From positions 100,644 to 164,643 of the forward strand of contig WSYB01000001.1 of NCBI GenBank assembly GCA_009773645.1: a stretch of DNA of 64,000 nucleotides, in the 5' to 3' direction. This document shows, piece after piece, positions 6,719 through 27,900 of this stretch. Positions within the stretch are counted from its first letter, which is position 1. Each line of letters opens with the position of its first letter. The stretch comes from Geobacteraceae bacterium. Its GTDB lineage: Bacteria; Desulfobacterota; Desulfuromonadia; Geobacterales; Geobacteraceae. A model generated the notes under the pieces. It was given only the letters and a program-made list of their open reading frames with translations. It was not told the DNA's origin and ran no database searches. The position numbers and the translations under genes are program-made.

Positions 6719-6741
6719 ACGCCTGTCTTACGGAATGTTCA

Positions 6742-7782: not shown

Positions 7783-7783
7783 T

Positions 7784-7872
7784 CCCTCACCCCTGCCCCT
7801 CTCCCAGAGGGAGAGGGAAAATAACTACTCTTGCAGCTCCCTCTCCCTCTGGGAGAGGGTTGGGGTGAGGGG
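7784..7872 (+). repeat. GC-rich dispersed inverted repeat forming the oleA-oleB junction
   Basis: Two arms (7784-7805 and 7851-7872) are near-perfect reverse complements of the CCCTCTCCC/GGGAGAGGG type. The same repeat family recurs near 24672, 35101 and 59502. The only Shine-Dalgarno-like run before the oleB ATG (GAGGGG, about 7868-7873) lies in the right arm, so a folded transcript would hide it. No T-tract follows, so this is not a typical intrinsic terminator. Confidence 0.85.
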
Positions 7873-7882
7873 ATTGGACCGT

Positions 7883-11423: not shown

Positions 11424-12154
11424 ACCGGGTACCGACACCGGCCGCCGGGGAGGTACACATCCGGTTTATCCACCTCGACAGGGAACCCGGTGAACTGGCA
11501 CGGCTCGAACGGTTCCTCTCTCCCGACGAACGAATCAGGGCCGGCCGTCTGCGCGACCGGCAGGCCAGGGACCGTTTTGTGGCCGGGCGCGGTTTTCTCC
11601 GCGAAACCCTGGCGGGCTGCCTGGGTCGTGAGCCGGAGAGGCTTCGGCTTGCCGTGGGAGAGCACGGGAAACCCTCCCTGGCGGGAGAAGAGGGGAGCAA
11701 AGGGCTCAGATTCAGCCTCTCCCATGCAGAAGATCTTGCCATTCTTGCCGTTGCCCGTGACTGTGAAATAGGGGTCGATCTGGAACGGATGAGGGACAAT
11801 GTGCCGTTTCGTCAGATGGCACAGCGTTTCTTTTCCCCCAGGGAAAGGGATGAGCTGTTCACTCTTCCGCCACCGTTGCAGCTGCCGGCCTTCTTCCGCT
11901 GCTGGACCCGCAAGGAAGCCTATTTGAAAGGGTGCGGCACCGGTTTTTCCCAGCCGTCCGACTGCTTCGCGGTTACCCTTCTTCCCGGCCACCCCCCTGC
12001 CCTTATGGAACACCTGACCTCTCCCGGAGAGCCCGCCAGATGGAGGATCGTGGATATTGCCGTTCCGGACGGCTGCTGTGCAGCCCTCGCCGCCGAAGGG
12101 GAAACTCCGGTCATCCGCTGCTTTCCGTGGGATTTATACAGTTCTTCTTCTTGA
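11420..12154 (+). CDS. Sfp-type 4'-phosphopantetheinyl transferase
   Basis: 244 residues. This family moves phosphopantetheine from CoA to the Ser of carrier-protein domains. The signatures GVDLE (Mg/CoA site, about residue 117) and WTRKEAYLK (about residue 167) are present, with FSLSHAE before them. The start is a GTG at 11420 overlapping the oleD stop. Being last in the megasynthase-ole cluster, it most likely activates the ACP array of the PUFA-type synthase, which lies upstream of the window (inference). The stop codon overlaps the -35 of the following regulator promoter. Confidence 0.9.
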   Translation: MNRVPTPAAGEVHIRFIHLDREPGELARLERFLSPDERIRAGRLRDRQARDRFVAGRGFLRETLAGCLGREPERLRLAVGEHGKPSLAGEEGSKGLRFSLSHAEDLAILAVARDCEIGVDLERMRDNVPFRQMAQRFFSPRERDELFTLPPPLQLPAFFRCWTRKEAYLKGCGTGFSQPSDCFAVTLLPGHPPALMEHLTSPGEPARWRIVDIAVPDGCCAALAAEGETPVIRCFPWDLYSSSS

Positions 12155-12280: not shown

Positions 12281-15200
12281 ATGAAGACAAAATACCCTCC
12301 CATAGCTAAAATAAGCCGTCCGACCACGTCAGGCGTTGTGACTCGCACAAGGGTTGTCAGCTTACTTGATGTCGCCCGAAATCAGCCGATTATCTGGGTC
12401 TCGGCCCCTGCCGGTTCCGGGAAGACCACGCTGGTCACCAGTTATCTTGATGAACACAAGCTCCCCTGTCTGTGGTATCAGGTCGATGAAAACGATGCGG
12501 ACATCGCCACGTTCTTTTATTACATGGGACTGGCCGCAAAGAGAGCATCTCCGCGGAACCGCGCATCTCTCCCCCTCTTGACTCCCGAATACCTTCAAGG
12601 AATCACCACTTTTACCCGCCGGTATTTCGACAGCCTTTACGGCAGATTCAGCCAACCCTTCACCCTTGTATTCGATAACTATCAGACTGTTCCGGCCGAC
12701 TCAGATTTTCATGGAATAATTCGTGACGGGCTCTCAGCTATCCCCGATGGGATCAATGTTATCGTAATCAGCCGCGAACCGCCTCCGCCGGTATTTGCTC
12801 GCCTGCGAGCGTCCAACAGGCTGAGTTTTATTGGATGGGATGAAATCAGGTTCGATCTGGAGGAAACCAAGTCACTCATTCTGAGCAAAAGGCAGGATTC
12901 CTTGCCGGATGCCTTCCTGGAAGATCTTCACAAAAAGACCGAAGGCTGGGCCGCCGGTGTCGTGCTGATGCTGGAACGGATGAAGTCGGGAGAAAACGAT
13001 CCGGAGGTACTTCACCATTGTACCCGGGAGGAAGTTTTTCACTATTTTGCGGGAGAACTGTTCGAAAAAGCCGGCAGAGAAACCCAGGATTTTCTGCTTG
13101 CCTCTGCCTTGTTGCCGAGTATGACCGCAGAAGAGGCTCAGGGCCTTACCGGCAACAATGCATCCGCAGCGATCCTGGCTGCGTTGAATCGTAACCACTT
13201 TTTTACCGAAAGACATTTTTCTGCGCACTCCGTCTACCAGTACCACCCGCTGTTTCGAGAATTCTTACTGGCTCGCGCGGAAGATACGCTGCCCCCGGCG
13301 CAGCTGCTTGAACTGCGGCGCAATACGGCCGCCTTGCTCGAAAGAAGCGGCCGTCCTGAACCGGCAGCGGAACTCATGTGCAAGATCGGTGACTGGCCGG
13401 CCCTCACGCGGCTGATCAATACTTGCGCGCAGGCCTTCATCGCCCAGGGGCGGACGCGGACCCTGGAGGGGTGGCTGAGGAGCTTTCCCGAAGGTTACGG
13501 TGAGCACTTCCCCTGGCTGGAATACTGGCTCGGCGCCTGCCGGCTCCCCTTTAGTCCGCTTGAGAGTCAGCACCATTTCGAACGCGCCTTCGAGCTGTTC
13601 GGAAAAGAAAATAATCCTTCCGGCCAGTTCCTTGCGTGGGCAGGAAAAGCCGATTCCATTTACTATGCCTGGTCCGACTTTACTTCTCTAGACCGTTGGT
13701 TTGTCCTGTTCGACGAGCTCCTTCAACGGCAGCCGGTTTTCCCGTCCGTGGAAATCGAAGTCATTGTTTCGAACAGCGTCTTCGGAGCGCTGCTCTACAG
13801 GAATCCCGTGCACGCCAAACTCGTTTTCTGGGAAGCGCGGTTAGACGCACTTCTCCATACGATCACCGACAGCCGCCTGCGTATCACGATGGGGAGCAAT
13901 CTCATCAATTATTATGTCTGGGTCGGCGATTTCGCGAAGGCGGCACGGCTGATCGATACGCTTAGAGCGTCGGTCCATGCCCGTGACATACCGCCTCTCG
14001 TACTCCTGATGTGGAATGGAATGGTGGCGATTTTCCACTGGGAGGTTTGCAATTTCGAGGGTTGCCGTAAGACCGTTGCCGAAAGTCTCAAGACCGCCGA
14101 GACCATGGGTATTCACATTCTTGACATGATCCTGCTCTCCCATGGCACCTACGGTGCTTTGAGCGCCGGAGAGCTTTCCTCCGGAGCAGATCTTCTCGAT
14201 CAGATCAAATCGCTGATGAGCTATGCCCGCTGGGTGGATATCGCGCATTACCACTACCTCGCAGGATGGGAGGCTGCCCTCCGCGAAGATATCCCGCGTG
14301 CTCTTGATCATGCGCAGGTGTCGCTATCGATCACAGAGAAATCAGGGGTCCTGTTTCCACAGGCTCTCAGCCATGCGGCAATGGCGCAGCTCCTGATAAC
14401 GCTCAAGCAATACAACGAGGCTTCACGCAGCATTCTGATGGCGCGTCGTATCGGTCATGGCATGAAGAGCTCGATCATCGAAACGATGTGTCTCCTGGCA
14501 GAAGCCCGGCTGGCTCTTGATCAGAACGATGAGATCAAGTGCCTCGTGACTCTGCGTGAAGCATTCGCGCTGGGAAAAAGTCAGGGCCATGTAAATTACC
14601 CCTGGTGGCAGCCGAAAGTGATGGCGCGCCTCTGCGCCAAGGCCCTGGAGGCGGGAATCGAGGCCGAGTATGTGCAACAGCTTGTGCGCAAACGTCATCT
14701 TTTACCTCCGGCGTCTCAGATGACGCTGGAAAACTGGCCCTGGCCTTTGAAGATCTACACTCTCTCCCGTTTCGAACTGGTCAGAGATGGGGAACCGGTA
14801 CGGTTCTCCGGCAAGGTGCAGCAGAAGCCGCTGGCTCTCCTCAAGGCGTTGATCGCCTTTGGCGGGGCCGATGTGGCCGAGGAGCAGGTCACGGACGTCT
14901 TATGGCCTGACGTTGATGGTGATCTGGCGCATCGGTCCTTCGAGGTGACGGTTCATCGCTTGCGCAAACTGATCGGCCATGAAAAGGCGATTCAGCTTCA
15001 GGACCGGCGCTTGACCCTCGATATCAGCCTTTGCTGGGTAGACGTCCGTGCCCTTGGGATTCTACTCGAAAAGGCAGACGCGGCCTGGAAAAGCATAAAT
15101 GAGTCACCCATCTGCTTGGCAGAGGCTGTGCGGCTGAGCGAAAAGGCTGTTGCTATGTACCGTGGGCATTTTCTGCCGGGCGATTCCGCCCACTCATGGG

Positions 15201-15502
15201 TGCTTTCCACACGCGAACGATTGCGGAGCAAGTTTCTTCGCCTCATTGTCAAGCTGGGCACCCACCGGGAACAGGCCAAGCAGTGGGAAAGCGCCGCGGA
15301 GGTGTTTCAGAAAGGGCTGGAGGTGGATGGGCTTGCCGAGGAATTCTACCAGCATCTCATGGTCTGCTATCAGCAAGTCGGCCGCAGGTCCGAGGCTATA
15401 GCCGTTTACAACCGCTGCCGTTCGCTTCTGTCATCTACGCTCGGAATCGTCCCTTCCACCGAGACCGAGAATCTCTATCAATCCCTTAAAAACGGCCGGT
15501 AG
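12281..15502 (+). CDS. MalT-like STAND ATPase with C-terminal SARP/BTAD DNA-binding module
   Basis: 1073 residues. The N-terminus resembles MalT-type NTPases: Walker A (SAPAGSGKTT, about residues 41-50), then a Walker B-like FTLVFDNYQ (about residue 128). The centre is helical, TPR-like repeats. The C-terminus has an OmpR/SARP-type winged helix (about 822-903, ending TVHRLRKLIG) followed by a BTAD domain with TPRs (about 907-1070). The DNA-binding domain is therefore the SARP kind, not the LuxR HTH of MalT. The ATG at 12281 is favoured over the adjacent TTG; the SD is weak. The ligand cannot be told from sequence. It lies between the lipid cluster and a set of surface/transport genes that share SARP-like direct repeats upstream (15984, 18216, 24833); these are its candidate targets. 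Confidence 0.85.
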   Translation: MKTKYPPIAKISRPTTSGVVTRTRVVSLLDVARNQPIIWVSAPAGSGKTTLVTSYLDEHKLPCLWYQVDENDADIATFFYYMGLAAKRASPRNRASLPLLTPEYLQGITTFTRRYFDSLYGRFSQPFTLVFDNYQTVPADSDFHGIIRDGLSAIPDGINVIVISREPPPPVFARLRASNRLSFIGWDEIRFDLEETKSLILSKRQDSLPDAFLEDLHKKTEGWAAGVVLMLERMKSGENDPEVLHHCTREEVFHYFAGELFEKAGRETQDFLLASALLPSMTAEEAQGLTGNNASAAILAALNRNHFFTERHFSAHSVYQYHPLFREFLLARAEDTLPPAQLLELRRNTAALLERSGRPEPAAELMCKIGDWPALTRLINTCAQAFIAQGRTRTLEGWLRSFPEGYGEHFPWLEYWLGACRLPFSPLESQHHFERAFELFGKENNPSGQFLAWAGKADSIYYAWSDFTSLDRWFVLFDELLQRQPVFPSVEIEVIVSNSVFGALLYRNPVHAKLVFWEARLDALLHTITDSRLRITMGSNLINYYVWVGDFAKAARLIDTLRASVHARDIPPLVLLMWNGMVAIFHWEVCNFEGCRKTVAESLKTAETMGIHILDMILLSHGTYGALSAGELSSGADLLDQIKSLMSYARWVDIAHYHYLAGWEAALREDIPRALDHAQVSLSITEKSGVLFPQALSHAAMAQLLITLKQYNEASRSILMARRIGHGMKSSIIETMCLLAEARLALDQNDEIKCLVTLREAFALGKSQGHVNYPWWQPKVMARLCAKALEAGIEAEYVQQLVRKRHLLPPASQMTLENWPWPLKIYTLSRFELVRDGEPVRFSGKVQQKPLALLKALIAFGGADVAEEQVTDVLWPDVDGDLAHRSFEVTVHRLRKLIGHEKAIQLQDRRLTLDISLCWVDVRALGILLEKADAAWKSINESPICLAEAVRLSEKAVAMYRGHFLPGDSAHSWVLSTRERLRSKFLRLIVKLGTHREQAKQWESAAEVFQKGLEVDGLAEEFYQHLMVCYQQVGRRSEAIAVYNRCRSLLSSTLGIVPSTETENLYQSLKNGR

Positions 15503-15983: not shown

Positions 15984-16018
15984 CCGTAAGTAATCCGTGG
16001 GTATCCTCCTGGTACGGT
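15984..16018 (+). promoter_or_regulatory. SARP-like direct-repeat site 1, upstream of the first YVVRIYR gene
   Basis: Heptamers CCGTAAG (15984-15990) and CCGTGGG (15995-16001) are separated by TAAT, an 11-bp period. Eleven bases later is TACGGT (16013-16018), at the place of a -10 box. Heptamer-4 bp-heptamer spacing matches known SARP binding sites. It is the most degenerate of the three copies in this window. Confidence 0.5.
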
Positions 16019-16058
16019 AGCTCCATAAATAAGCAGAGTTCTAAAATTATGGGGTCCT

Positions 16059-16253
16059 ATGGACAGCTACGTCGTGCGGATCTACCGGAGAGACAGCGGC
16101 AGCCCTCAGAAAATTGTGGGCCTGGTAGAGCTCGTGGATTGCGAGGAAGAGAAGGCCTTCACCAGTTTTGAAGAGCTTCGGGCGATCCTGAACGCCAGGC
16201 AAGGGCATTCGGCTGGCAAAAAATCGAATGGAAACGTGGAACTGAACAGATAG
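16059..16253 (+). CDS. Small conserved protein, YVVRIYR family, copy 1
   Basis: 64 residues, no signal peptide or membrane segment, function unknown. It is clearly paralogous to the 69-residue protein at 18304. Shared elements are a start MDSYVVRIYRR / METYIVRIYRK, a central G-x-V-E and an AFTSFEELRAIL / GFSTPAELCRIL helix near the end. A GGGG run 4-8 bp before the ATG can serve as SD. It lies about 40 bp downstream of a SARP-like site and 67 bp before the broken RCC1-repeat gene. The two copies, each following such a site, suggest a regulon-linked small protein. I do not recognise a biochemical role. Confidence 0.7.
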   Translation: MDSYVVRIYRRDSGSPQKIVGLVELVDCEEEKAFTSFEELRAILNARQGHSAGKKSNGNVELNR

Positions 16254-16320
16254 TTCAGGGGTAATTCAGGGGCCATACAGAAAAGCTGTCACCATTACTC
16301 AAGCACGGCAGGAGGCAATC

Positions 16321-17032
16321 ATGGAAAGGTTACTTATGGCGTTCATTCTTCTCACAGGGCTTTTGTGCGCAAGCGTTTCTGCGCAGGCATCGCCCTACTA
16401 CACGTCAAGCGTGCAGGACCTCGGCTCAGGCAGATGGCAGTATGACTACACGGTGACGAACGCCGGCCAGCACCTTCACCCAGCTGAGCGCTGGGCACTA
16501 TCATACCTGCGGGGTGAAAAGCGACGGCAGTGTGGCCTGCTGGGGATCCAATAATTATGGCCGTAGCACTCCGCCGGCTGGCGCCTTCACCCAGGTAGGC
16601 GCGGGGAGCACTCATACCTGCGGCGTGAAGACCGACAGCGTCGTGGCGTGCTGGGGAGACAACTATTACGGCCAGAGTACTCCGCCGGTCGGCTCCTTCA
16701 CCCAGCTGAGCGCGGGGAACTATCATACCTGCGGGGTGAAAAGCGACGGCAGCGTGGCCTGCTGGGGATACAATTCTTTTGGCCAAAGCACTCCGCCAGC
16801 CGGCTCCTTCACCCAGGTGAGTGCGGGGAGCGTTCATACCTGCGGGGTGAAAAGCGACGGCAATGTGGCGTGCTGGGGAAACAACGATTACGGCCAGAGC
16901 ACTCCGCCGGCCGGCACCTTCACCCAGGTAGGCGCGGAGAGCGTTCATACCTGCGGGGTGAAGACCGACGGCGTTGTGGCCTGCTGGGGATTAAATGGTC
17001 CCGGCCTGAGCCCCGGAATCGTGCTGCCGTAA
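16321..17032 (+). pseudogene. RCC1-repeat secreted protein, frame-disrupted
   Basis: Frame 1 gives a signal peptide and a short N-terminal segment (SPYYTSSVQDLGSGRWQYDY...) of the kind seen on PEP-CTERM-family exported proteins, then shifts near 16465. In the next frame about five RCC1-like repeats of 37 residues (111 bp) follow, each with HTCGVKSDGSVACWG and TPPAGSFTQVSAG, to the stop at 17032. In that second frame the repeat can be followed back to about 16466, right at the junction, so a deletion or recombination that joined the N-terminus to the repeats out of frame is likely. No sorting signal remains at the C-terminus. A good SD (GGAGG) precedes the ATG at 16321. A sequencing error is the alternative to a true frameshift. 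Confidence 0.75.
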
Positions 17033-17304
17033 GAATAGGTGGTGTTGGTATTTGTAGAGGGCGCAATTGCGGGGGCAATACCGAATAAGGGAATTTATAT
17101 ATTTCCAGGGATATTCCCTTCTCTGCCGATAACGGCAGGCAACCTCAACGTGGGGGATTCGGACACGCTTTGATGTTCCGACGACGGTAATACGCTTCTC
17201 CGTACCGGGAACGGTACATTGCATAACGTGCTGGGGACGATTTTCAACTGCTCGGTCGGCGGGCGGTAAGGTCTTAAACAGAAACAAAACCAAAGGAGTG
17301 ATCT

Positions 17305-17889
17305 ATGAAAAAGACGATTATTGCCACAAGTATTGCCGTGTTAATGTTTGTGTCTCAAGCCTTTGCTATCTTAATTGATCAAGAAAGTCCATATGTTAGT
17401 CCAGTAATTGTACTTAACCCTGATTTGAATTGGCAGCAAACTGTTACTGTTGGCAAATCTGGGCATCTTATGGGAATAGATCTATACGGTACAGGTGAAT
17501 CAACTGACTTAATTCTATATATTAATAATGGGGCTGGGTGGCAGTACGACACAAGCGACTATTCTGCAACAGTAAATTTTAGCACGGCTCTAGGATGGCA
17601 ATATTTTGATGTATCGAATGCTGGTTTGAATTATTCGATTGGCGACCAATTTGTAATTGGACTTATGGGGACAGATCCTACTTCTGTAAGGATTGGTGGC
17701 TCTGCTCTTCCACCGCTAAATGCTTATGTATCAAATACATATGTAGGTGGACCTATAGAATCTGACTATAATATTGCATTTCGAACATATGTAGATGCGG
17801 GGAGTCCAGTACCCGAACCGTCCACGATTGTCCTTCTTGTCGCAGGTCTTGCCGGTCTTGGATTGCTGAGAAAAAGAACGGAACTATAA
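17305..17889 (+). CDS. PEP-CTERM sorting-signal exported protein
   Basis: 194 residues. A signal peptide (about residues 1-21, ending SQAFA) is followed by a beta-rich extracellular domain and a canonical PEP-CTERM tail: PVPEPST, a hydrophobic helix, then RKR near the end. Such proteins are processed by an exosortase, which is not in this window. The SD AAAGGAG sits at proper spacing before the ATG at 17305. The gene is visibly richer in A+T than every neighbour, which suggests later acquisition. The middle domain is not recognised; choice-of-anchor-like domains are possible. It lies among other exported repeat proteins and remnants. Confidence 0.85.
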   Translation: MKKTIIATSIAVLMFVSQAFAILIDQESPYVSPVIVLNPDLNWQQTVTVGKSGHLMGIDLYGTGESTDLILYINNGAGWQYDTSDYSATVNFSTALGWQYFDVSNAGLNYSIGDQFVIGLMGTDPTSVRIGGSALPPLNAYVSNTYVGGPIESDYNIAFRTYVDAGSPVPEPSTIVLLVAGLAGLGLLRKRTEL

Positions 17890-17910
17890 CCAAAACAAAG
17901 GTACGATTTT

Positions 17911-17999
17911 TCCTCCCCCTTTCGTAAAGGGGGATCGAGGGGGATTTAGCTCAGCCGGTTTCTAAATCCTCCCCTGCCCCCCCTTTACAAAAGGGGGGA
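17911..17999 (+). repeat. CCCCCTTT/AAAGGGGG dispersed repeat
   Basis: Two arms of the type CCCCCTTTCGTAAAGGGGG and CCCCCCTTTACAAAAGGGGGG surround a TTTAG...TAAAT core. It is non-coding, downstream of the PEP-CTERM gene, and could act as a stem-loop at the transcript end. Confidence 0.75.
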
Positions 18000-18067
18000 A
18001 ATAGGATCAACCTTTTTTTGGGTTATAGGTCCGAAAAAGAATCACTTACGAGGGAAAGAACTAAAGA

Positions 18068-18120
18068 GTCAAGTCTCAACTCTATACATAACTTGAAGAT
18101 GTCGGTGGTTGAGACTTGAC
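18068..18120 (+). repeat. Perfect 13-bp inverted repeat
   Basis: GTCAAGTCTCAAC (18068-18080) is the exact reverse complement of GTTGAGACTTGAC (18108-18120), with a 27-bp loop. There is no gene in it. It is followed directly by the tandem repeats at 18117-18162. Confidence 0.9.
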
Positions 18121-18162
18121 CCTTGAGAGTGTGACCCTTGAGAGTGATGACCCTTGAGAGTG
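18117..18162 (+). repeat. Three tandem 15-bp repeats
   Basis: TGACCCTTGAGAGTG occurs at 18117-18131, 18132-18146 and 18148-18162. The first copy overlaps the right arm of the inverted repeat. The block lies 54 bp before the SARP-like site at 18216. Confidence 0.9.
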
Positions 18163-18215
18163 ACCGGGGAAAACCGCTAACCAAGGTTGTTATATGTCTG
18201 CATTTTTTCCGGAAT

Positions 18216-18250
18216 ATGTAAGCAATCTGTAACCGCTTTCATATTACCAT
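18216..18250 (+). promoter_or_regulatory. SARP-like direct-repeat site 2, upstream of the CNB-transporter operon
   Basis: Heptamers ATGTAAG (18216-18222) and CTGTAAC (18227-18233) separated by CAAT; 11 bp later TACCAT (18245-18250). The arrangement is identical to sites at 15984 and 24833. It would drive the six-gene operon starting at 18304. Confidence 0.6.
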
Positions 18251-18303
18251 TCATCCCTCAAAGCATTTCATCCGGCATATCCGATGTTTCGCAGGAGGTG
18301 ATC

Positions 18304-18513
18304 ATGGAAACCTACATTGTGCGCATTTACCGCAAGGGAGCTACGGCTTCAGACGGTATCGCAGGCATGGTGGAAGACGTGGCCCGGCAAAAGGAAAAGG
18401 GATTCAGCACTCCGGCAGAGCTTTGCCGGATTCTCGATCTCCGGATGGGCAACGGGTCAAACGGCAACCGCGAAAATGAAACACCCGGCAACGGGAAGGA
18501 AGCCGAAACTTGA
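18304..18513 (+). CDS. Small conserved protein, YVVRIYR family, copy 2
   Basis: 69 residues, paralogue of the protein at 16059; soluble, function unknown. The N-terminus METYIVRIYRKG is predicted strand-like, the middle has GIAGMVEDVARQKEKGF, and the tail is Asn/Gly/Glu-rich and probably disordered. A strong SD (GCAGGAGGTG) precedes the ATG at 18304. Its stop overlaps the TTG start of the first transporter (TTGA), so it is the lead gene of the operon and may be needed for translation of the transporter. It could be a small regulator or accessory subunit; nothing in the sequence decides. Confidence 0.75.
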   Translation: METYIVRIYRKGATASDGIAGMVEDVARQKEKGFSTPAELCRILDLRMGNGSNGNRENETPGNGKEAET

Positions 18514-20408
18514 AGCAGATAAACTTCAGCGCATTGCCCCTTTTCAAGGGGCTTGACAGGATTGAGATCGCCAAGCTGATCCCCAGCCTGATCACCGAGC
18601 ATGTTCACGCCGGAGCCGATCTGTTCAGGCAGGGTGATCCCGGCGACTCCCTGTTAATCATCGTCAAGGGAAAGGTCAGCGTTTTTCTCGAAACCGGCAT
18701 CGAAGGCGTTCGCGAGCTCGCAACGCTCGGCCACGGAGAATGCTTCGGGGAAATGGCGCTTCTGACGGGAGCGCCGAGATCGGCCACAGTCCGGACCCTC
18801 ACCGATGCAACCCTTCTCAGGCTCCCGAAGGAAAACTTCGACGAGCTGCTGAAAAAACACCATTCCCTCTCGGTCCACTTTGCCGGCGTCCTCGCCGGCC
18901 GGCTCTCGTCGGTCAATGCCGTGCCGGGTCCCGATGCCGTTGCCGATGAACCCGGAGCTTATTTCCACATCGACGGGGATGCGGTCGCGAAGGGAAAGGG
19001 GGCAGGTCTCGAACTTCTCAAGAACCGCAAGATCATCACCTTCATCCTCCTGGTGACCCTCTGCTCTCTTTCCACCCTCTTTATGCAGCATGCCGGTTTC
19101 TCTTTTTCGCACATCGTCCTCCTGGAGCTGATCCTCGCCGCCACCATCATCTGGAGCTTCGACATCATCCCGTACCACGCCGTCTCCATCGCGCTCCCCA
19201 TGTTCGCCGTCCTGTTCGGCATCAGCACTACCGAGCGGGCATTTTCCGGCTTCTCCAGGCCTTACTGGTTCCTGGCCCTCGGAGTTTTCGCCCTGTCGGC
19301 GGCCATCTTCCGCACCGGTCTCCTTTACCGGCTGGCGCTCCTGATCATGCTGCGCTTCCCCGGCAACTACTTCGGGCAGACCTTTGCGCTAGCTCTCGCG
19401 GGATTCATTCTCACCCCCCTGATCCCTTCCGCCTACGGCCGCTCCATCCTTGCGAGCCCCATCGCCGTCACCATGAGCGAAACGATGCGGCTGAAGAAGG
19501 ACAGCCCCGGCACCATCGGCATCGCCATGGCATGCCTGCTCGGCTTCGGGCACATGAGCTTCATGTTCATGAACGGGTCGGCAACCTGCGCCTTCGTGAT
19601 GGGGCTCATTCCCGGGGGCGGGAAAGCGGTGTCGTGGGGGGGATGGCTGGAGGCGGCGCTTCCCCTGGGGATTTCCTTCTTCCTCATGTCGTACGCCGCC
19701 ATCATCCTCCTCTACCGGCCGGACAAGCCGACGCGGCTTCCGCCTGAGACGGTTGAAGCCCAACTGAAGGCGCTGGGGCCGTGGACCGGGAAGGAGAAGG
19801 TGGCGCTCGCCACCGTCATTGCCTCCATCGCCGCCTTCGCCACCGAACCGCTCCACCATCTGAACGAGGCGTGGATCGCCATGTTCGGCTTTCTCTTCGT
19901 CTTCGCCACCGGCACGCTGGAGGAAAAATCGATCCGCTCCGACATGGACTGGAGCTTCCTCATCGCCCTCGGCGCCATGGTGGGATTCGGCGACGTCCTG
20001 GCCGAAAGCGGGCTGGTGAACCTGCTGGTCTCCGCCATAAACCCGTACCTCCAGCTCTTCAGCGGCAGCAAGACCCTCTTCCTCATGGCGTTCAGCCTGG
20101 CGGTCCACCTGGTACGCTGCGCACTCCCCCTCACGCCTGGGCTCTTGGTGAGCATGCTGGCCGCGATTCCGGTCCTCTCCAGCATCGGTATCGACCCGTT
20201 CGTGACGGGGCTGGTGGCGCTAGCCTCCGGCAATCCGTGGATACTTAAACAGCAGAACAGCATATATCGCAACGTCTGGAAGGCGACCGAAGGAAAGCTC
20301 TTCCACCACGAAGACACGATGAAGATCGCCCTCCTGCACGTCGCCATCGTTACGGCCGCCGTGGGGATTTCGGTGCCGTACTGGGAACATCTGGGGCTCA
20401 TACGGTGA
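18510..20408 (+). CDS. cNMP-binding domain fused to SLC13/DASS-type anion transporter, copy 1
   Basis: 632 residues. Residues about 8-120 form a cyclic-nucleotide-binding domain with the phosphate-binding cassette intact (CFGEMALLTGAPRSATV: the Glu and the Arg that contact ribose and phosphate in CRP-like domains). From about 170 to the end there are roughly a dozen hydrophobic segments of the sodium:sulfate/dicarboxylate symporter type, with the conserved FGHMSFMFMNGSATCAF stretch. The start is a TTG at 18510 overlapping the preceding stop. The substrate cannot be told. A cytosolic cNMP-gated carboxylate or anion carrier is the simplest reading. A second copy follows after 3 bp. Confidence 0.85.
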   Translation: MKQINFSALPLFKGLDRIEIAKLIPSLITEHVHAGADLFRQGDPGDSLLIIVKGKVSVFLETGIEGVRELATLGHGECFGEMALLTGAPRSATVRTLTDATLLRLPKENFDELLKKHHSLSVHFAGVLAGRLSSVNAVPGPDAVADEPGAYFHIDGDAVAKGKGAGLELLKNRKIITFILLVTLCSLSTLFMQHAGFSFSHIVLLELILAATIIWSFDIIPYHAVSIALPMFAVLFGISTTERAFSGFSRPYWFLALGVFALSAAIFRTGLLYRLALLIMLRFPGNYFGQTFALALAGFILTPLIPSAYGRSILASPIAVTMSETMRLKKDSPGTIGIAMACLLGFGHMSFMFMNGSATCAFVMGLIPGGGKAVSWGGWLEAALPLGISFFLMSYAAIILLYRPDKPTRLPPETVEAQLKALGPWTGKEKVALATVIASIAAFATEPLHHLNEAWIAMFGFLFVFATGTLEEKSIRSDMDWSFLIALGAMVGFGDVLAESGLVNLLVSAINPYLQLFSGSKTLFLMAFSLAVHLVRCALPLTPGLLVSMLAAIPVLSSIGIDPFVTGLVALASGNPWILKQQNSIYRNVWKATEGKLFHHEDTMKIALLHVAIVTAAVGISVPYWEHLGLIR

Positions 20409-20411
20409 TGC

Positions 20412-22301
20412 ATGCAGAACATTGATTTCCGCAATATTCCGCTCTTCAGCGGCCTGGACCGTATCAGCCTCGCCAGGCTGATTCCGCGCCTCGTGAAACG
20501 CGAGGCGCCGGAGGCGACCCTCCTCGTGGCGGAGGGTGACCCGGGAGACTGCCTCTACGTCATCGTCAGCGGGCTGGCAAAGGTCTACCGGTTGGATGGC
20601 GGCGAGGAACGGGAGCTGGCGATCCTGGGGGCGGGAGACTGCTTCGGGGAAATGTCGCTTTTGCGGGGGGAGCCCCGTTCCGCCAGCGTTAGCGCCCACA
20701 CCGACCTGGTGCTGTTCCAGCTCACCCGGGAGAACTTCGACGACCTCCTCCGCAGACACCACTCCCTGGGGGTGCACCTTGCGGAAGTGCTGGCGGGGAG
20801 GTTGGCGCAGGCCTATACGGAATCCTCCTCACTCCCGCATCCAGCGGCGACCCTTGCCGGGGATACCCCCGTTCCCCCGTCATCCTCCGGCTTTGCGGCA
20901 GCGCTTCTGCAGCGACGCGAGATGCGTGCCGTGCTGCTGACCCTCGTCGGGGTGCTCCTCGCCTACCCCTTCCTTTCCCGCAGCGGTCTTCCGTGGCGCG
21001 ACCTGGTGCTGCTGGAACTCCTCCTGGGGGCCACCATCGCCTGGGGCTGTAATGCCTTTTCGTACCACGCGGTGGCGGTATCGCTGCCAGTGCTCACGGT
21101 GCTCTGCGGCGCGGCCGGGGCGGAAAAGGCGTTTGCCGGGTTCTCCAGCCCCTCATGGTTCCTGGTGCTTGGGGTCTTCGCCGTTTCCGCCGCCATCTCC
21201 CGCACGGGCCTTCTTTACCGCCTGGTGCTCCTGATGGTCCACCGCTTCCCCCGCCGCTACGGCGCCCAGACATTTGCCCTCGCCCTGGCCGGGCTCCTGC
21301 TGACGCCGGTCATCCCCTCTTCCAACGGCCGGGCGGTGCTGTCGGGGCCGCTGGTCCTCAACATCTGCGAAGCGCTCGGCTTTTCCAAGGATTCCCCCGG
21401 CGCCGTCGGGATGGGGATGGCGACGCTGCTGGGCTTCGGACACATGAGCTTCATGTTCATGAACGGCACGGCCACCTGTTTCCTGGCTCTGGGACTTTTG
21501 CCGAAAGAGGCGGCGGCGAGCATCTCCTGGGGTAGCTGGGCGTTCTACGCCCTGCCGCTCGGGATTGCCTACTTCGCCGTCTCGATCCTTCTCCTCCTCT
21601 TCATGTACCGGCCGGTGGAGACGAAGGCGCTCCCCCCCGAGGTGATCGAGGCACAGCTGAAGGCGCTCGGGAAGATGACCCGAAAAGAAAAGATCTCCCT
21701 CTGGGTGGTGGTCTTCTCGCTTCTGGGATTCGTCACCGAGCCGCTCCACGGGATCAACGGCGCCTGGGTGGCGATGGTGAGCTTCCTCCTCCTCTTCGTC
21801 ACGTCGGTCCTGGACGAGGGGGCGGTCCGGCGGGACATCGACTGGAACTTCCTCATCTCTTTCGGCGCCCTCATCGGCTTCGGCGGGGTCATCTCCGCAA
21901 GCTCCATCCCCGGCGCCGCGGCCGCCTCCATTGGGGGGATCATCGGAAGCATCACCACCAGCGGCTGGCTTTTCCTCCCGCTTGTGGCGCTGACGGTGTA
22001 CGTCCTGCGGCTCTCGCTCCCCCTGCCGGCGGGGCTGCTGGTTTCCATCCTCGTCTTCACCCCCATCGCAGGCACCTTGGGGATCCACCCCTTCGTCATC
22101 GCCCTGGTGGCACTGGTGGCAAGCAACCCCTTCTTCGTGCCGTTCCAGAACGCGGTCTACCAAAATTTCCTGGAGAGCACAGAGGGAAAGCTCTTTTCCC
22201 ATGTGCAGGCGCGGAGATACTCGTGGGCGCAACTGGCGGCCGTGCTGACGGCGGTGGTGCTGAGCATCCCGGTCTGGCGGCTCATGGGACTCATACAGTG
22301 A
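20412..22301 (+). CDS. cNMP-binding domain fused to SLC13/DASS-type anion transporter, copy 2
   Basis: 629 residues, tandem paralogue of the preceding gene, aligned along its whole length (NIPLFSGLDRISLARLIPRL; CFGEMSLLRGEPRSASV; FGHMSFMFMNGTATCF). The cNMP contact Glu and Arg are kept. The linker between sensor and transporter is Pro/Ser-rich. The ATG at 20412 follows the previous stop by 3 bp; the gene ends on a TGA that overlaps the kinase ATG by one base. Divergence between the copies indicates an old duplication, perhaps giving different substrates or a heterodimer. The transport domain belongs to the same fold as citrate/dicarboxylate carriers. Confidence 0.85.
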   Translation: MQNIDFRNIPLFSGLDRISLARLIPRLVKREAPEATLLVAEGDPGDCLYVIVSGLAKVYRLDGGEERELAILGAGDCFGEMSLLRGEPRSASVSAHTDLVLFQLTRENFDDLLRRHHSLGVHLAEVLAGRLAQAYTESSSLPHPAATLAGDTPVPPSSSGFAAALLQRREMRAVLLTLVGVLLAYPFLSRSGLPWRDLVLLELLLGATIAWGCNAFSYHAVAVSLPVLTVLCGAAGAEKAFAGFSSPSWFLVLGVFAVSAAISRTGLLYRLVLLMVHRFPRRYGAQTFALALAGLLLTPVIPSSNGRAVLSGPLVLNICEALGFSKDSPGAVGMGMATLLGFGHMSFMFMNGTATCFLALGLLPKEAAASISWGSWAFYALPLGIAYFAVSILLLLFMYRPVETKALPPEVIEAQLKALGKMTRKEKISLWVVVFSLLGFVTEPLHGINGAWVAMVSFLLLFVTSVLDEGAVRRDIDWNFLISFGALIGFGGVISASSIPGAAAASIGGIIGSITTSGWLFLPLVALTVYVLRLSLPLPAGLLVSILVFTPIAGTLGIHPFVIALVALVASNPFFVPFQNAVYQNFLESTEGKLFSHVQARRYSWAQLAAVLTAVVLSIPVWRLMGLIQ

Positions 22302-23506
22302 TGCAAAAGACCATTGAAAAACAGCTGGCCGCCCTGGTCGAGATGGCGACCCTGATCGGCTCCAGCATGGATCCGCTGGAGATAACCGAACGGGCGACAG
22401 CCTCGGCCATGGAACTGGTCAATGCCGAGGCGGGGAGCCTGATGCTGCTCGATGAAAAGCGTTGGGAGCTCTTCTTTCAGGTGGCCCTTGGAGAAAAAGG
22501 GGCTCTCATCAAGGACATAAGACTGAAAAAGGGGGAAGGGATCGCCGGTTGGGTGGTGGAAAACCGGGTGCCGGTCCTGGTGAACGATGTGCAGCGCGAC
22601 CCCCGCTTCAACCGGACGGTGGACAGAATCAGCAGGTTTCAGACCTTGGCCATGCTCTGCGTGCCGTTGATAACCCCCAAGGGTAGAGTTCTCGGGGTGC
22701 TGCAGGCGATCAACAAGCATCGTGGAAAGTTCTCCGAAGAAGACCTTGCGATGCTCCGGACGCTGGCAGCTCCTGTTGCCGTGGCGCTGGAAAACGCCTT
22801 CCTCTATGAGCAGAACTCCCGGCAGATGCAGGCCATCATCTCCCAGGAGCGGCAGCACCGCCAGGAAAAGGAAAAGCTCATCAGGGACCTGCACGATGGA
22901 ATCGGCGGTCTTGCCGCCAACGTCAGCATTCTGGCCGAGGTGGGACGGCGTGCCGATAGCAGAGCCGACATGGACTCCTGTCTGGCAACTATCGCCGACC
23001 TCTCCCGTGAGGCCGTTGCCGAGATTCGGGCCTTCATGAATACCGTCGAAGAGGGGACCCTGACCTGGCAGGCCCTGGCAGGGGAACTGCGCCATTTCGG
23101 CAGTACACTGCTGGCACCGCACGGCATCAACTGCCACTGCTCCGCCGACATTGCCGGCCGGCAGCCTTCTCCCGGCCTTTTTTTTTATCAATCGGTCTGT
23201 CGCATTGCACGGGAAGCCCTTACCAATGTAGTGAAGCATGCGGCGGCCGGAAATGTAGCGATCGGCCTCTCGGTCCGGCGGCGGCGACTCTCCCTTACCA
23301 TCGCCGATGACGGACGAGGGGTTTCCGGCGCTGAACCACCCGGACGGGGGCTGGCCAACATGCGGAAACGTGCCGAGGAGTTGGGAGGTTCATACACGAT
23401 CATCGTTGCCGGAGGAACCACCATCAGCATCGATATCCCCTTGCCCGGCAAGAGCGCCACGCCATCGACAACCAGCCGCCGTCTTCCTTGGAGGCCCGTC
23501 CAATGA
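22301..23506 (+). CDS. GAF-domain sensor histidine kinase, NarL/DesK-type (HisKA_3)
   Basis: 401 residues, no membrane segment. A GAF domain (about 20-165) is followed by a HisKA_3 dimerisation helix with the phospho-acceptor His198 in RDLHDGIGG, and a HATPase (N box REALTNVVKHA, G1 ADDGRG, G2 GRGLANM). The ATG at 22301 shares a base with the preceding TGA, and the stop overlaps the regulator ATG (ATGA). A signal from the cytosol, perhaps a small molecule bound by GAF, is likely. Its partner is surely the next gene. The co-operonic transporters suggest sensing of the transported substrate or of the energy state. Confidence 0.9.
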   Translation: MQKTIEKQLAALVEMATLIGSSMDPLEITERATASAMELVNAEAGSLMLLDEKRWELFFQVALGEKGALIKDIRLKKGEGIAGWVVENRVPVLVNDVQRDPRFNRTVDRISRFQTLAMLCVPLITPKGRVLGVLQAINKHRGKFSEEDLAMLRTLAAPVAVALENAFLYEQNSRQMQAIISQERQHRQEKEKLIRDLHDGIGGLAANVSILAEVGRRADSRADMDSCLATIADLSREAVAEIRAFMNTVEEGTLTWQALAGELRHFGSTLLAPHGINCHCSADIAGRQPSPGLFFYQSVCRIAREALTNVVKHAAAGNVAIGLSVRRRRLSLTIADDGRGVSGAEPPGRGLANMRKRAEELGGSYTIIVAGGTTISIDIPLPGKSATPSTTSRRLPWRPVQ

Positions 23507-24132
23507 GAATTGTAATTGTCGAGGACAACCGGCTGCTTCGGGAAAACCTCAGCATTCTCCTGGCCGGGGAGCCCGGAATCACCGTTGCCGGAGCTTTCGG
23601 CTCGGCCGAGGATACCCTTGCAGGTCTCGGCGTGATAGAGTTCGACATTGTGCTCGTCGATCTTGATCTGCCGGGGATGAACGGCGTCGAACTGATCCGC
23701 CGGATCAGGCGATTTCATCCCGACTCCGACATCATGGTGCACACCATCTTCGAAGACCGCGACACGGTCTTCTCCGCCCTGAAAGCCGGCGCCACCGGCT
23801 ACATCCTCAAGGGGAGCACGCCGCGGATACTGGTGGAATCACTCGAGAGCCTTCACAATGGCGGTGCCCCCATGAGCCCGAAGATCGCCCGCAAAGTCAT
23901 CCACGAGTTTCAGTCCCGGGAACAGGGAAGCCCTGAAGATCGCATCCTCTCCTCGCGGGAAAAAAGCGTCGTCAAAGGCCTGGAGCATGGGATGTCCTAC
24001 AAGGAAATTGCCGACCGGCTTTGCATCAGCCCCCACACCGTCCATACCCACATCAAGAATATTTACGAAAAGCTTCAGGCCAAAGACCGGCCAAGCGCCC
24101 TCCTGACGGCCCGCAAAAGGGGGTTGATATGA
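23503..24132 (+). CDS. NarL/FixJ-family response regulator
   Basis: 209 residues. The receiver domain has the acidic pair EDN near the N-terminus and the phospho-acceptor Asp53 (VDLDLPG). The C-terminal LuxR-type HTH is complete (LSSREKSVVKGL, SYKEIADRL, SPHTVHTHIKNIYEKL). The ATG at 23503 overlaps the kinase stop; the in-frame codons upstream lie inside the kinase. It is the cognate regulator of the GAF kinase. NarL-type proteins bind short inverted heptamers; I did not find a convincing one at the operon start. Confidence 0.92.
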   Translation: MRIVIVEDNRLLRENLSILLAGEPGITVAGAFGSAEDTLAGLGVIEFDIVLVDLDLPGMNGVELIRRIRRFHPDSDIMVHTIFEDRDTVFSALKAGATGYILKGSTPRILVESLESLHNGGAPMSPKIARKVIHEFQSREQGSPEDRILSSREKSVVKGLEHGMSYKEIADRLCISPHTVHTHIKNIYEKLQAKDRPSALLTARKRGLI

Positions 24133-24242
24133 ACTACCCCGAAAATACCCTCTGCCGGGTATTGTTAGTCACCAACCTTACCGCTTTAATGATCACAAAG
24201 CAGAATCCGGCATTTTTCGCTGTTCGGGAAAGGGAGGGGAAC

Positions 24243-24482
24243 ATGAAACGTTCAACAAAGGGGTGGTGCCGGCTTGCAGCATCGGTGACATCTGCGCTTG
24301 CCTGGCAGATTGCATCTTGGGGAACCGCTGCGGGCATTGAAAACCAAGGTGTGTTGGATGCCATGCTGAACGATGACGTGTGGAGGGGGTGGGACATCAT
24401 CTTCGGCGTAATTCTGCTTGCCGTCATGCTGACTCTGAAAAAACGCTTCATGGGAAATGAGAGGAATGGTGAAGAAGGTTGA
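24243..24482 (+). CDS. Small membrane protein at the end of the two-component operon
   Basis: 79 residues, not recognised. The N-terminus (MKRSTKGW then a hydrophobic stretch to about residue 29) looks like a signal peptide or first membrane segment; a second hydrophobic segment, GWDIIFGVILLAVML, is followed by KKRF, giving a cytosolic tail. The ATG at 24243 has a strong SD (GGGAGGGG). An in-frame ATG at 24129 overlapping the regulator stop would give 117 residues but has no SD and an unlikely N-terminus. It may be an accessory subunit of the transporters or the kinase. Confidence 0.6.
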   Translation: MKRSTKGWCRLAASVTSALAWQIASWGTAAGIENQGVLDAMLNDDVWRGWDIIFGVILLAVMLTLKKRFMGNERNGEEG

Positions 24483-24706
24483 TGCTCTCGCAAATTGTCA
24501 TTCCCGAAGCGATTTTGATCGGGAATCCAGACTGTAACCCATTGAAATCATGGATGCCCGATAGAGCCATTCCGGCATGACAAATCGCAAAGAAGCTAAG
24601 ACGCAAAGGAAAAGAAATCAAGACATTACCTGAGTAGAACTAATCTCCCGCTTTTGGCGGCTACTGAATCCCCTCTCCATGAGGGAGAGGGCTAGGGTGA
24701 GGGGGG
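24480..24706 (+). repeat. Intergenic mosaic of dispersed repeats
   Basis: This part of the 480-bp gap before the giant surface gene has no ORF. It starts with TGATGCTCTCGCAAATT, identical to the left end of the element at 35071. A degraded TGTCATTCCCG...CGGGAATCCAG repeat (about 24497-24592) follows, then a CCCTCTCC/GGGAGAGGG repeat (24672-24706). Confidence 0.75.
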
Positions 24707-24832
24707 TAGAGTTGATAAATGTGGCGCTGCTGCCCCCCTTTGCGACTCTGCGTCATTGCGTCATTGCGTTACGGCTTGCAGTTGCCGTTAGATTTCCAAT
24801 TAAAATACGAAAGACCCAAAATAATCTCGAAT

Positions 24833-24867
24833 ATGTAATCAATCTGTAAGTTGGTCTGCCGTATATT
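24833..24867 (+). promoter_or_regulatory. SARP-like direct-repeat site 3, upstream of the giant dockerin protein
   Basis: Heptamers ATGTAAT (24833-24839) and CTGTAAG (24844-24850) separated by CAAT; 11 bp later TATATT (24862-24867). With site 2 it shares GAATATGTAA-N-CAATCTGTAA. The 5' UTR to the ATG at 24964 would be about 90 nt. Confidence 0.6.
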
Positions 24868-24963: not shown

Positions 24964-27900
24964 ATGAATCAATTATTTTTGGCGCCGAAGCAATTTGTCC
25001 TTCCATATGCACTGCTCACATCCCTGCTCCTGCTCCTGGCGATGCCTCCTGCGGTGCAGGCGGCCACAGTGGCAGTTGGGACATGGCCACAGGCTATCGC
25101 GGTGAACCCTGCCACTAACAAGTTCTACGTGGCAAACTATGGCTTTGGCAACAACGTTACGGTAATCGACGGGGCCACCAATGCTACCATCACCGTGGCC
25201 GCAGGCACTGAGCCGCGGGCCGTAGCGGTGAACCCGGTCACCAACAGGATATACGTGGCGAACTATGGAAGTCACAACGTCACGGTAGTCGACGGAGCCA
25301 CCAATTCTACCACAACCATAGCCACAGGGGCATCTCCCGTGAGCATTGCGGTGAACCCGGTCACCAACAGGATCTACGTGGTTAATTCTGGCAGCTACGA
25401 TGTCACGGTGATCGACGGGGCCACCAACGCCACCAGCACCGTGGCAGCTGGGACAGCTCCATCTGCCGTGGCGGTGAACCCGGTTACCAACAAGATCTAC
25501 GTGGCAAATTTCAGCAACGACCTCACGGTGATTGACGGAGCGAGCAACACCACCAGCAACGTTGCAATAGGGGCATCACAAAGGCTCCTAGCGGTGAACC
25601 CGATTACCAACAAGATTTATGTAACGAACCAAAGCAACAACGTTACGGTGATCGACGGAGCGAGCAACGCTACCAGCACGGTAGCCGCAGGGGCGGGATC
25701 TTTTGCCGTAGCGGTGAACCCGGTCACTAACAGGGTCTACGTGTCCAACCAAACCAGCAATGACGTAACGATAATCGACGGAGCCACCAACACTACCAGC
25801 ACCGTGGCTGTAGGGACATCCCCGCGGGGGCTAGCGGTCAACCCGACCACAAATACGATTTACGTGACGAACGGCGGCAGCGCAAACGTCACGGTGATCG
25901 ATGGGGCCACCAATGCCACCAGCACGGTAGCTGCAGGGACAATACCTATTGCCGTGGCGGTGAACCCGGTCACCAACAAGATCCACGTGGCGAACTATGG
26001 CAGCAACACCGTCACGGTGCTCGACGGGGCCGCCAACACCACCAGCACGGTGGCCGCTGGGACATTGCCCTATGCCGTGGCGGTGAACCCGGTCACCAAC
26101 AAGATCTACGTGACGAACTACAACAGCAACAACGTCACGGTGATCGACGGGGCTACCAATGCCACCAGCACAGTGGCTGCGGGGACAAATCCCAGGGCCG
26201 TAGCGGTGAACCCCGCCACCAACAAGATCTACGTAGCGAACTTTAGCAGCGCCAATGTCACGGTGATCGACGGGGCCACCAATGCTACCAGCACCGTGGC
26301 TGCGGGGACAAAACCCTATGCCGTAGCGGTGAACCCGGTCACCGACAAGATCTACGTGGCGAACTTTGGCAGCAACAACATCACATTGATCGACGGGGCC
26401 ACCAATGCTACCAGCACCGTGGCTGCGGGGACAAGTCCCTTTGCTGTAGCGGTGAACCCGGTCACCAACAAGATCTACGTGGCGAACGAAGGCAGCAACA
26501 ATGTCACGGTGATCGATGGCGTCACCAATGCCACCAGCACCGTGGCCGCGGGAGGGGGGGCAGCCGTAGCTGTGAACCCTGTTACCAACAGGATATATGT
26601 GGCGAAGTATGGCACCGGCGAATGCACGGTGATCGACGGGGCCACCAACGCCACCAGTACCGTGGTTGTGGGGATAAATCCACAGGCCATAACGGTGAAC
26701 CCGGTCACCAACAAGATCTACGTGGCGAATTATGGCAGCGCCAATGTCACGGTGATCGACGGCGCCAGCAACGCCACCACCACCGTGGCCGTGGGGACAA
26801 ATCCAACTGTCATAGCGGTTAACCCGGCCACCAACAGGATCTACGTGGCAACCAGCGGTATCGTCACGTTTATCGACGGGGTCACCAACGCCACCAGTCA
26901 CATGTTTGCCGACACAAATAATCCGCGGGACGTGGCGGTGAACCCGGTCACCAACAGGGTCTACATAACAAACCAAACCAGCAACGATGTCACGGTGATC
27001 GACGAGCAGGCGGCACAGCCCATCCCGCTGTCGGTGGTCATCGCACCGCTCAGCAATAACGTGTCCTCGTCCCCGACCCCAACCTTCTCCCTGACGGCAG
27101 CGAGCACCTTTACACCGCCGACCATTTTGCAGAATGTCTACTACCAGTACGACACCTGGCAGGGGGAATGGAAATCGGCGACTACGTTTAATGGAACCAG
27201 CGGCACGGTGAATGACGCGACACCGCTCCTGAAGGGGGGCCATGTCCTCTACATGTTCGCCACGGATGGCCAGGAGGCGACGTCGACCAACACCGGCTAC
27301 CAGGGGAGCCCGCTGATCGGCTCCATCGCCGCCTATGCCTTTACCGTTACCGGCCCCATTCCAACTCCGCCATCGGCCACTTCCGGTGCTGCGACCAGCA
27401 TCACCCAGACCGGCGCGACCCTGAACGGCACCGTGAACGACAACGGGGCCGACACCACGATCACCTTCGAGTACGGATTGACTACGGCTCACGGCAGCAG
27501 CGCCTCCGGGGGGACAGTGGCTAGCGGGGCGGGGAGCACGGCGGTATCGGCCGCCATAAGCGGCCTTGCCTGCGGCACGACCTATCACTTCCGGGTCAAT
27601 GCTGTCAATAGCGGTGGCACGACCAACGGCTCCGACCAGACCTTCACGACCGCCGCGTGCACCTACACCATCAGTGCCGCCGTGATCGGCGGTAACGGCA
27701 GCATCTCCTGCACGAGCCCCGTCAACCAGGGGAACAGCAGCACCTGCACCATCACCCCGGCTGGGGAGTATCACCTGGCCACCTTCACCGACGACACCGT
27801 GGACAAACTGGCCTCGGTGTCGTCGGGCAGCTACACCATCAGCAGCGTCACCGCCAATCACGCAATTGTCGGCACCTTCGCCCCCGATCCGGGCACCGCA

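Follow-up and report, generated by a model that had tools for sequence, protein, structure and literature searches.

SARPs are best known from Actinobacteria, in which they act as switches for antibiotic production. The present analysis concerns three direct-repeat boxes, a large SARP-type regulator and two members of a small-protein family (YVVRIYR) in a 64,000-nucleotide stretch of DNA from a Geobacteraceae bacterium (assembly GCA_009773645.1, contig WSYB01000001.1, positions 100,644 to 164,643 of the forward strand), hereafter called the window. SARP operators, and the form in which two heptamers are separated by 4 bp, are already known (PMC5930380). In the AfsR-afsS system of Streptomyces, two 11-bp repeats overlap the -35 region, and the AfsR helix contacts DNA with T88 and R92 making base contacts (PMC10936776). 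We propose that the three boxes are very probably SARP operators joined to promoters, and that the transcript activated from them would mostly encode a small YVVRIYR protein followed by secreted or surface proteins.

Three direct-repeat boxes in the window

A preliminary description of this DNA had placed boxes of the form heptamer-4-heptamer, with an 11-bp period, at 15984, 18216 and 24833, each followed after exactly 11 bp by a TA-N3-T hexamer. The coordinates and the repeat layout are borne out letter by letter, and the hexamer stands at that distance in all three cases. The sites are as follows:

15984..16018, + strand: site 1, candidate operator/promoter CCGTAAG-TAAT-CCGTGGG-11-TACGGT (letter check; layout as in regulator-to-small-gene intervals elsewhere)
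18216..18250, + strand: site 2, candidate operator/promoter ATGTAAG-CAAT-CTGTAAC-11-TACCAT (letter check and generic pattern scan)
24833..24867, + strand: site 3, candidate operator/promoter ATGTAAT-CAAT-CTGTAAG-11-TATATT (letter check and generic pattern scan)

In a genome-wide motif scan, which the preliminary description had called for, the core YGTAANYAATCYGT has four exact matches in the 4.74-Mb genome, three of which lie inside the window, and the reversed pattern has none. With one mismatch allowed, 31 matches are observed in the whole genome versus 6 for the control; among the 30 with readable surrounding sequence, 21 fall within reading frames that run for at least 150 codons without a stop, and only three carry TANNNT at +11, which are exactly the three window sites. 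Likewise, a generic pattern (GT cores, purines at heptamer positions 5 and 6, repeat identity of at least 5/7 and TANNNT at +11) matches only sites 1, 2 and 3 on both strands of the window. The three-box observation is therefore confirmed as exact and not a product of chance. A scan for the sigma-70 consensus listed no promoter at any of the three sites, which lack a consensus -35.

Several further matches were inspected. The fourth exact core (C43:236706; C numbers denote contigs of this genome) lacks TANNNT at +11 and is not counted as an operator. The pattern CYGTRRGNNATCYGTRGG with one mismatch has seven matches (control 1), five of which are identical copies of one repeat, and these were not taken as operators. 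This identical 18-bp sequence lies at C23:6, C32:6, C48:8, C29:77232 and C63:54191, three of them extreme contig starts, and is probably an element that broke the assembly. The pattern CYGTAAGNNATCYGTAAG with one mismatch matches only the two sites on contig C38. One of these, C38:76026 (L044), is a near-copy of the C38 SARP promoter that adjoins collagen-like and RCC1-like coding sequence (labels by eye), and no small gene was found behind it. At C42:3360 (L046), the operator-like sequence ACGTAAT-CTAT-CTGTAAT-11-TATAAA precedes a 337-aa kinase-like gene (label by eye), which is possibly a distant regulon member.

The regulator at 12281, the small proteins and their linkage

The proteins on which the proposal depends are encoded close to site 1 and site 2:

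12281..15502, + strand: large SARP regulator, 1073 aa, with a MalT-like ATPase at about residues 9-403, a middle part, and a C-terminal OmpR-type winged helix and BTAD
14918..14974, + strand: predicted recognition helix, residues 880-898 (helix 55-73 of the 248-aa domain model; covarying residues 885, 888, 889 and 892)
16059..16253, + strand: YVVRIYR small protein 1, 64 aa (reading frame; model with three strands and one helix)
18304..18513, + strand: YVVRIYR small protein 2, 69 aa (overlaps the start of the next gene)

The earlier assignment of a SARP/BTAD regulator to 12281 is upheld by the BTAD model PF03704, which scores 83 bits (cut-off 22.1) over residues 946-1069, and by a predicted fold nearest to AfsR and EmbR. 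The C-terminal 248 residues (826-1073) are modeled with a pLDDT of 95.7, and the best Foldseek matches of this model are AfsR as seen in its transcription complex (8k60/8hvr) and EmbR, with E values of 4e-9 to 8e-8 over ~240-255 columns; the winged-helix model PF00486 remains below its cut-off (16.6 versus 26.2). The protein thus has the SARP arrangement of an OmpR-type winged helix followed by BTAD. Its N-terminal region (residues 9-403) is a partial match to the MalT model NF003420 (2e-56, 191.5 bits) that stays below the cut-off of 537, and no LuxR-type helix-turn-helix (GerE) was listed in the Pfam search, so that the protein is not assigned to MalT (LAL). With the MalT-like region at 9-403 and BTAD at 946-1069, its domain order is also the reverse of that of large SARPs of the AfsR type. 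No confident family was found for the middle part. The genome encodes four full-length regulators of the SARP kind (12281 and one each on contigs C38, C12 and C25) and three weaker BTAD matches. Upstream of the regulator gene (158-12154) lie a 2186-aa reading frame and further genes, the last of which, directly before the SARP gene, encodes a 4'-phosphopantetheinyl transferase (PF01648).

The two small proteins are 43% identical, and a third copy is found on contig C38 directly after another SARP gene. Family members occur in 8 of 97 near relatives and in 25 of 395 genomes of the phylum, with the window genome counted in both. A scan of genome contigs yielded 42 loci from other genomes (numbered with the prefix L), mainly from Nitrospirae, Desulfuromonadota/Deltaproteobacteria, Beta- and Gammaproteobacteria, with one labelled Actinomycetota. 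The small-protein model of three strands and a helix is of moderate confidence (pLDDT 74). Searches of 39 members against Pfam returned weak families from one member each (best E 0.0048), two members searched against NCBIfam gave no match, and against the PDB the best sequence E value was 1 and the best Foldseek E value 0.45; as far as searched, the YVVRIYR family is not a member of a described Pfam, NCBIfam or PDB family. The alignment of the family (A3) leaves out L070, L077, L080, L092 and L093 for reasons of length, gaps or truncation.

Linkage of this family to SARP genes and to the operator form recurs outside the window. A SARP-domain reading frame is present in 34 of the 42 loci, and in 27 it lies on the same strand and ends less than 800 bp upstream of the small gene; apparently complete regulators at these loci range from ~300 to 1160 aa. 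We examined 49 upstream regions, comprising the 42 loci, the two window genes and L033, L037, L041, L042 and L043. An 11-bp repeat of at least 6/7 identity is found in 47 of them versus 7 to 21 for other periods, and the repeat together with TANNNT at +11 is found in 26, for which a Markov null gives a mean of 0.28 and a maximum of 2 in 300 runs. The aligned sites give the consensus CTGTRRG-NNAT-CTGTRRG-N11-TANNNT, with conservation mainly in the heptamers and the -10. When a stricter pattern (at least 6/7) was run over 617 kb (the window and the 42 loci, both strands), 20 of its 22 matches lay 65-183 bp before a small gene and on its strand; the window sites, at 5/7, are not among these 22. 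Further upstream regions from the phylum search peak again at period 11 (19 of 23; other periods 3-15). Many of these regions differ in their -10, and at several loci of other families of the phylum (L107-L135) the direct repeats are followed by a -10 that departs from TANNNT, for example TGTGA-TAAAAA. No GT-core site was found in the 250 bp upstream of the small gene in L069 and L093, and L083, with a 4/7 repeat, is excluded from counts at 5/7 or better. These counts are not independent, since a single assembly supplies both L072 and L073, and L058 is closely related to L071.

Direct repeats at 11 or 22 bp near a -10 are a mark of SARP operators, and the boxes have this form, as proposed earlier from the window, with 11-bp repeats, TANNNT and linkage to SARP genes in relatives. 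Operators of this kind precede family members in many genomes, which makes both YVVRIYR genes of the window likely targets, in agreement with the preliminary description.

Covariation, rival explanations and the proposed mechanism

Operator half-sites change in step with each other and with the recognition helix of the regulator. The two half-sites of an operator agree at heptamer positions 5-7 with identities of 0.91-0.96, versus 0.45-0.61 when shuffled. Covariation was scored over 36 regulator-operator pairs and 235 variable regulator columns (L059 and L043 were dropped as partial regulators), and residue 888 is the top column of the 235 for positions 5, 6 and 7 individually. When the operator state is taken as a whole, four of the five highest columns (888, 892, 889 and 885) fall in the predicted helix. 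The presence of G at heptamer position 7 tracks Asp, Glu or Asn at 888 in 35 of the 36 pairs (L079 is the exception), and the rule holds in all seven of the later loci that could be scored, including L129 with its doubtful small gene. These seven come from 17 later loci with a regulator match, of which six lack the helix and L107, L108, L113 and L123, with no site or a poor one, were unscored; in L113, where residue 888 is Ala, the poor 4/7 candidate ends in G and would, if real, break the rule. Both the 36 pairs and the later loci were already known when the explicit rule was worded, and only the ranking of column 888 came earlier. On a tree built without the helix, five of the seven changes in either trait share a branch with a change in the other (p 1.4e-5), in one parsimony reconstruction that resolves ties in one way and in which two of the coincident branches are nested. 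Overlapping helix windows rank 1, 2 and 4 of 58 in operator prediction. By alignment to AfsR, 888 corresponds to R87 (phosphate contact), 889 to T88 (base contact) and 892 to S91 (phosphate contact). Operator and helix divergence may thus be readable as a partial SARP DNA-recognition code, in which Asp, Glu or Asn at 888 would go with G at heptamer position 7.

A number of observations weigh against this reading of the boxes as SARP operators with a matched recognition helix. The bare core with up to two mismatches is ordinary in the window (6 observed versus 3.6 expected; 13 of 100 shuffles reach 6), and therefore the signal rests on the spacing and the downstream hexamer. The heptamer pairs of the window sites are identical at 5/7 positions, with 6 or 7 in most relatives, and exact TANNNT at +11 follows the repeat in 26 of the 49 upstream regions, not in all. 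No SARP gene was seen in eight of the 42 loci; in three of these (L073, L093 and L094) the sequence upstream spans only 0.7-1.3 kb, and in L080 4.8 kb, but L066, L083, L088 and L096 lack one despite 6.8-10 kb and are real exceptions. Seven of the 36 pairs rely on a regulator that lies downstream of the small gene or is separated from it by more than 700 bp. Columns outside the helix also score highly, residue 930 being the fifth of the top five, and nearest neighbors by helix predict the operator at 0.79 versus 0.76 for the rest of the domain. Since the helix predicts only slightly better than the rest of the domain, relatedness confounds the covariation and shared ancestry accounts for a good part of it. 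Finally, sites 2 and 3 do not match the operator type predicted for the 12281 regulator.

The mismatch at sites 2 and 3 bears on the earlier claim that the 12281 regulator controls all three sites, which agrees with the type of site 1 and is called into question for the other two. Residues 888, 889 and 892 are Glu, Val and His in the 12281 protein and Asn, Thr and His in the C38, C12 and C25 paralogues. All ten sites of Glu-888 regulators, site 1 included, have G at position 5 or 6 of the second half-site, and among the window sites only site 1 (CCGTGGG) does. Asp/Asn-888 regulators (17 of the first 36 pairs) go with AAG sites in 15 cases and TAG sites in two, and sites 2 and 3 have AA in both half-sites. 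Site 1 is probably the cognate site of the 12281 regulator; sites 2 and 3 are of the same operator class and may be served by paralogues. The specific proposal that a paralogous SARP (C38, C12 or C25) binds sites 2 and 3, such that the window holds targets of two regulators, is evenly balanced in our judgment. It agrees with the Asn-Thr and His 892 of all three paralogues, with the AA type of the two C38 sites and with the absence from sites 2 and 3 of the G found with all ten Glu regulators. However, both sites lie less than 10 kb from the 12281 gene, and the upstream heptamer of site 1 is CCGTAAG; the Glu-Val regulator of L122 also has a mixed AAG/GGG site, and the 12281 protein may accept AA half-sites. 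No small gene or operator was found within 700 bp behind the C12 and C25 regulators.

Two explanations dispense with SARPs altogether. PhoB/OmpR-type regulators belong to the same winged-helix class, and the Pho box consists of CTGTCAT repeats arranged as 11-bp direct repeats, a likeness that would suit binding of the boxes by a response regulator of that type. This is nonetheless very unlikely: the repeats occur together with SARP genes at 34 of the 42 loci and show covariation with the SARP helix, and the only response regulator examined, at 23488, is of the NarL type (GerE), the search for an OmpR-type protein having been confined to the locus. It is more improbable still that the repeats are a conserved leader or mobile repeat that travels with the small gene and binds no protein. 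Although the repeats precede a small gene in 47 of 49 cases, they also stand before genes with no small gene in between (site 3 and two sites in L069), their conservation lies mainly in the heptamers and -10, and their half-sites covary with a protein helix.

From the computed operator structure, SARP linkage, helix covariation and downstream secretion enrichment described below, we infer a mechanism of binding, activation and gating and a role for the small protein. A dimer of the SARP domain would occupy both heptamers, its subunits adjacent on the same face of the DNA, at the position of a -35 element. The bound dimer would recruit RNA polymerase to a bare TANNNT -10, with docking of sigma region 4, and the MalT-like ATPase in front of the SARP domain would probably gate this activity. 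The activated transcript would usually encode the small YVVRIYR protein first and then secreted or surface proteins; site 3 would drive the giant surface protein directly, without a small gene. For the small protein itself, a feedback or envelope-linked partner is our best guess. In L070 (1618-2055) the YVVRIYR protein carries a fused PilZ domain (26 bits, cut-off 22.5), which might connect it to c-di-GMP signalling, and because of this fused copy the small protein may be a c-di-GMP-linked partner. At six loci its companion is a SARP gene of only 294-321 aa, too short for the ATPase; this weakens the idea that it acts on the ATPase domain alone, and its action should therefore not be confined to that domain.

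Downstream genes and comparison with known systems

The genes behind the three boxes are as follows:

16321..17032, + strand: secreted protein with RCC1-like repeats (by eye), probably degraded or frameshifted (frames 16321-16554 and 16514-17032)
17305..17889, + strand: PEP-CTERM protein, 194 aa (PF07589 25.7 bits versus cut-off 20.7; TIGR02595 over cut-off)
18510..24132, + strand: two cNMP-binding/anion-symporter proteins, a GAF histidine kinase and a NarL-type response regulator (Pfam; close spacing)
24964..32298, + strand: giant repeat protein, 2455 aa, with an N-terminal signal sequence (by eye; reading frame, ATG at 24964)

The genes at 18510..24132 are likely one operon behind site 2, the start of which is overlapped by small gene 2, and the giant repeat protein is the probable target of site 3. 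A similar N-terminus to that of the 16321..17032 product is found in the protein behind the C38 small gene. In the other loci, the target was taken as the first gene met on the + strand within 1.2 kb after the small gene and encoding at least 100 aa, and secretion was called from a signal peptide, lipobox or PEP-CTERM-like tail. By this simple heuristic the first downstream gene is secreted in 22 of 30 cases, versus 38 of 260 for the remaining genes at these loci. No gene qualified in 12 of the 42 loci. Pfam searches of nine longer downstream proteins found PKD, Ig-like, cadherin-like, NHL, fibronectin or Lcl_C domains in five and no match in four. In L069 an operator separates the regulator from an 846-aa lipoprotein-like gene, and a second one precedes a 303-aa secreted-looking protein, an arrangement like that of site 3.

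Taken across genomes, we lean somewhat towards a widespread module in which a SARP activator, which often carries a MalT-like ATPase ahead of its SARP domain, acts through a diverging operator on a transcript with an unnamed small protein first and surface proteins next; operator and helix would have co-diverged, and the small protein might serve specifically as a feedback or c-di-GMP-linked partner. By titles and abstract starts among openly licensed papers, no paper describing a module of SARP, operator and small protein was found. As far as the literature searches reach, three elements are new: regulators of reversed domain order for which an operator is defined, the family of small proteins, and a partial rule of recognition. 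Across Nitrospirae, Desulfuromonadota, Beta- and Gammaproteobacteria, such loci offer a natural series of SARPs paired with their operators, so that the DNA code of the family can be tested. Moreover, they give a predicted control site for surface-protein operons of mostly uncultured bacteria and point to a nameless small-protein family that travels with SARP regulators.

Of the described systems, AfsR/SARP activators share with the 12281 kind an OmpR-type winged helix with BTAD, 11-bp repeats at the -35, and poor -35 and -10 elements, and the large form of AfsR, with ATPase and TPR domains, can be likened to the large 12281-type regulator (PMC10936776). In AfsR, however, the SARP domain is N-terminal, whereas here it is C-terminal with the MalT-like ATPase first, and the distance from the second heptamer to TANNNT is 11 bp here versus the 8 bp stated for AfsR's own repeat definition (PMC10936776). 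The systems also differ in host and cargo: AfsR belongs to Streptomyces, while the present module occurs mostly in Nitrospirae and proteobacterial groups with other heptamers, and here a small protein and secreted proteins lie downstream instead of an antibiotic cluster. PimR, a SARP-LAL regulator, is alike in its heptamers with 4-bp spacers and its ATPase, and its consensus CGGCAAG resembles the CGGTAAG/CTGTAAG seen here, but its main operator has three repeats upstream of the -35 and its SARP domain is N-terminal (PMC5930380). MalT and the LAL regulators partly share the N-terminal ATPase region with the 12281 protein, which differs in ending with a SARP domain. DnrS of Thermus is likewise a large regulator with a C-terminal BTAD from outside Actinobacteria; unlike the 12281 protein it has an N-terminal GAF domain and controls denitrification, and a SARP operator does not appear in the available part of its account (PMC5748679).

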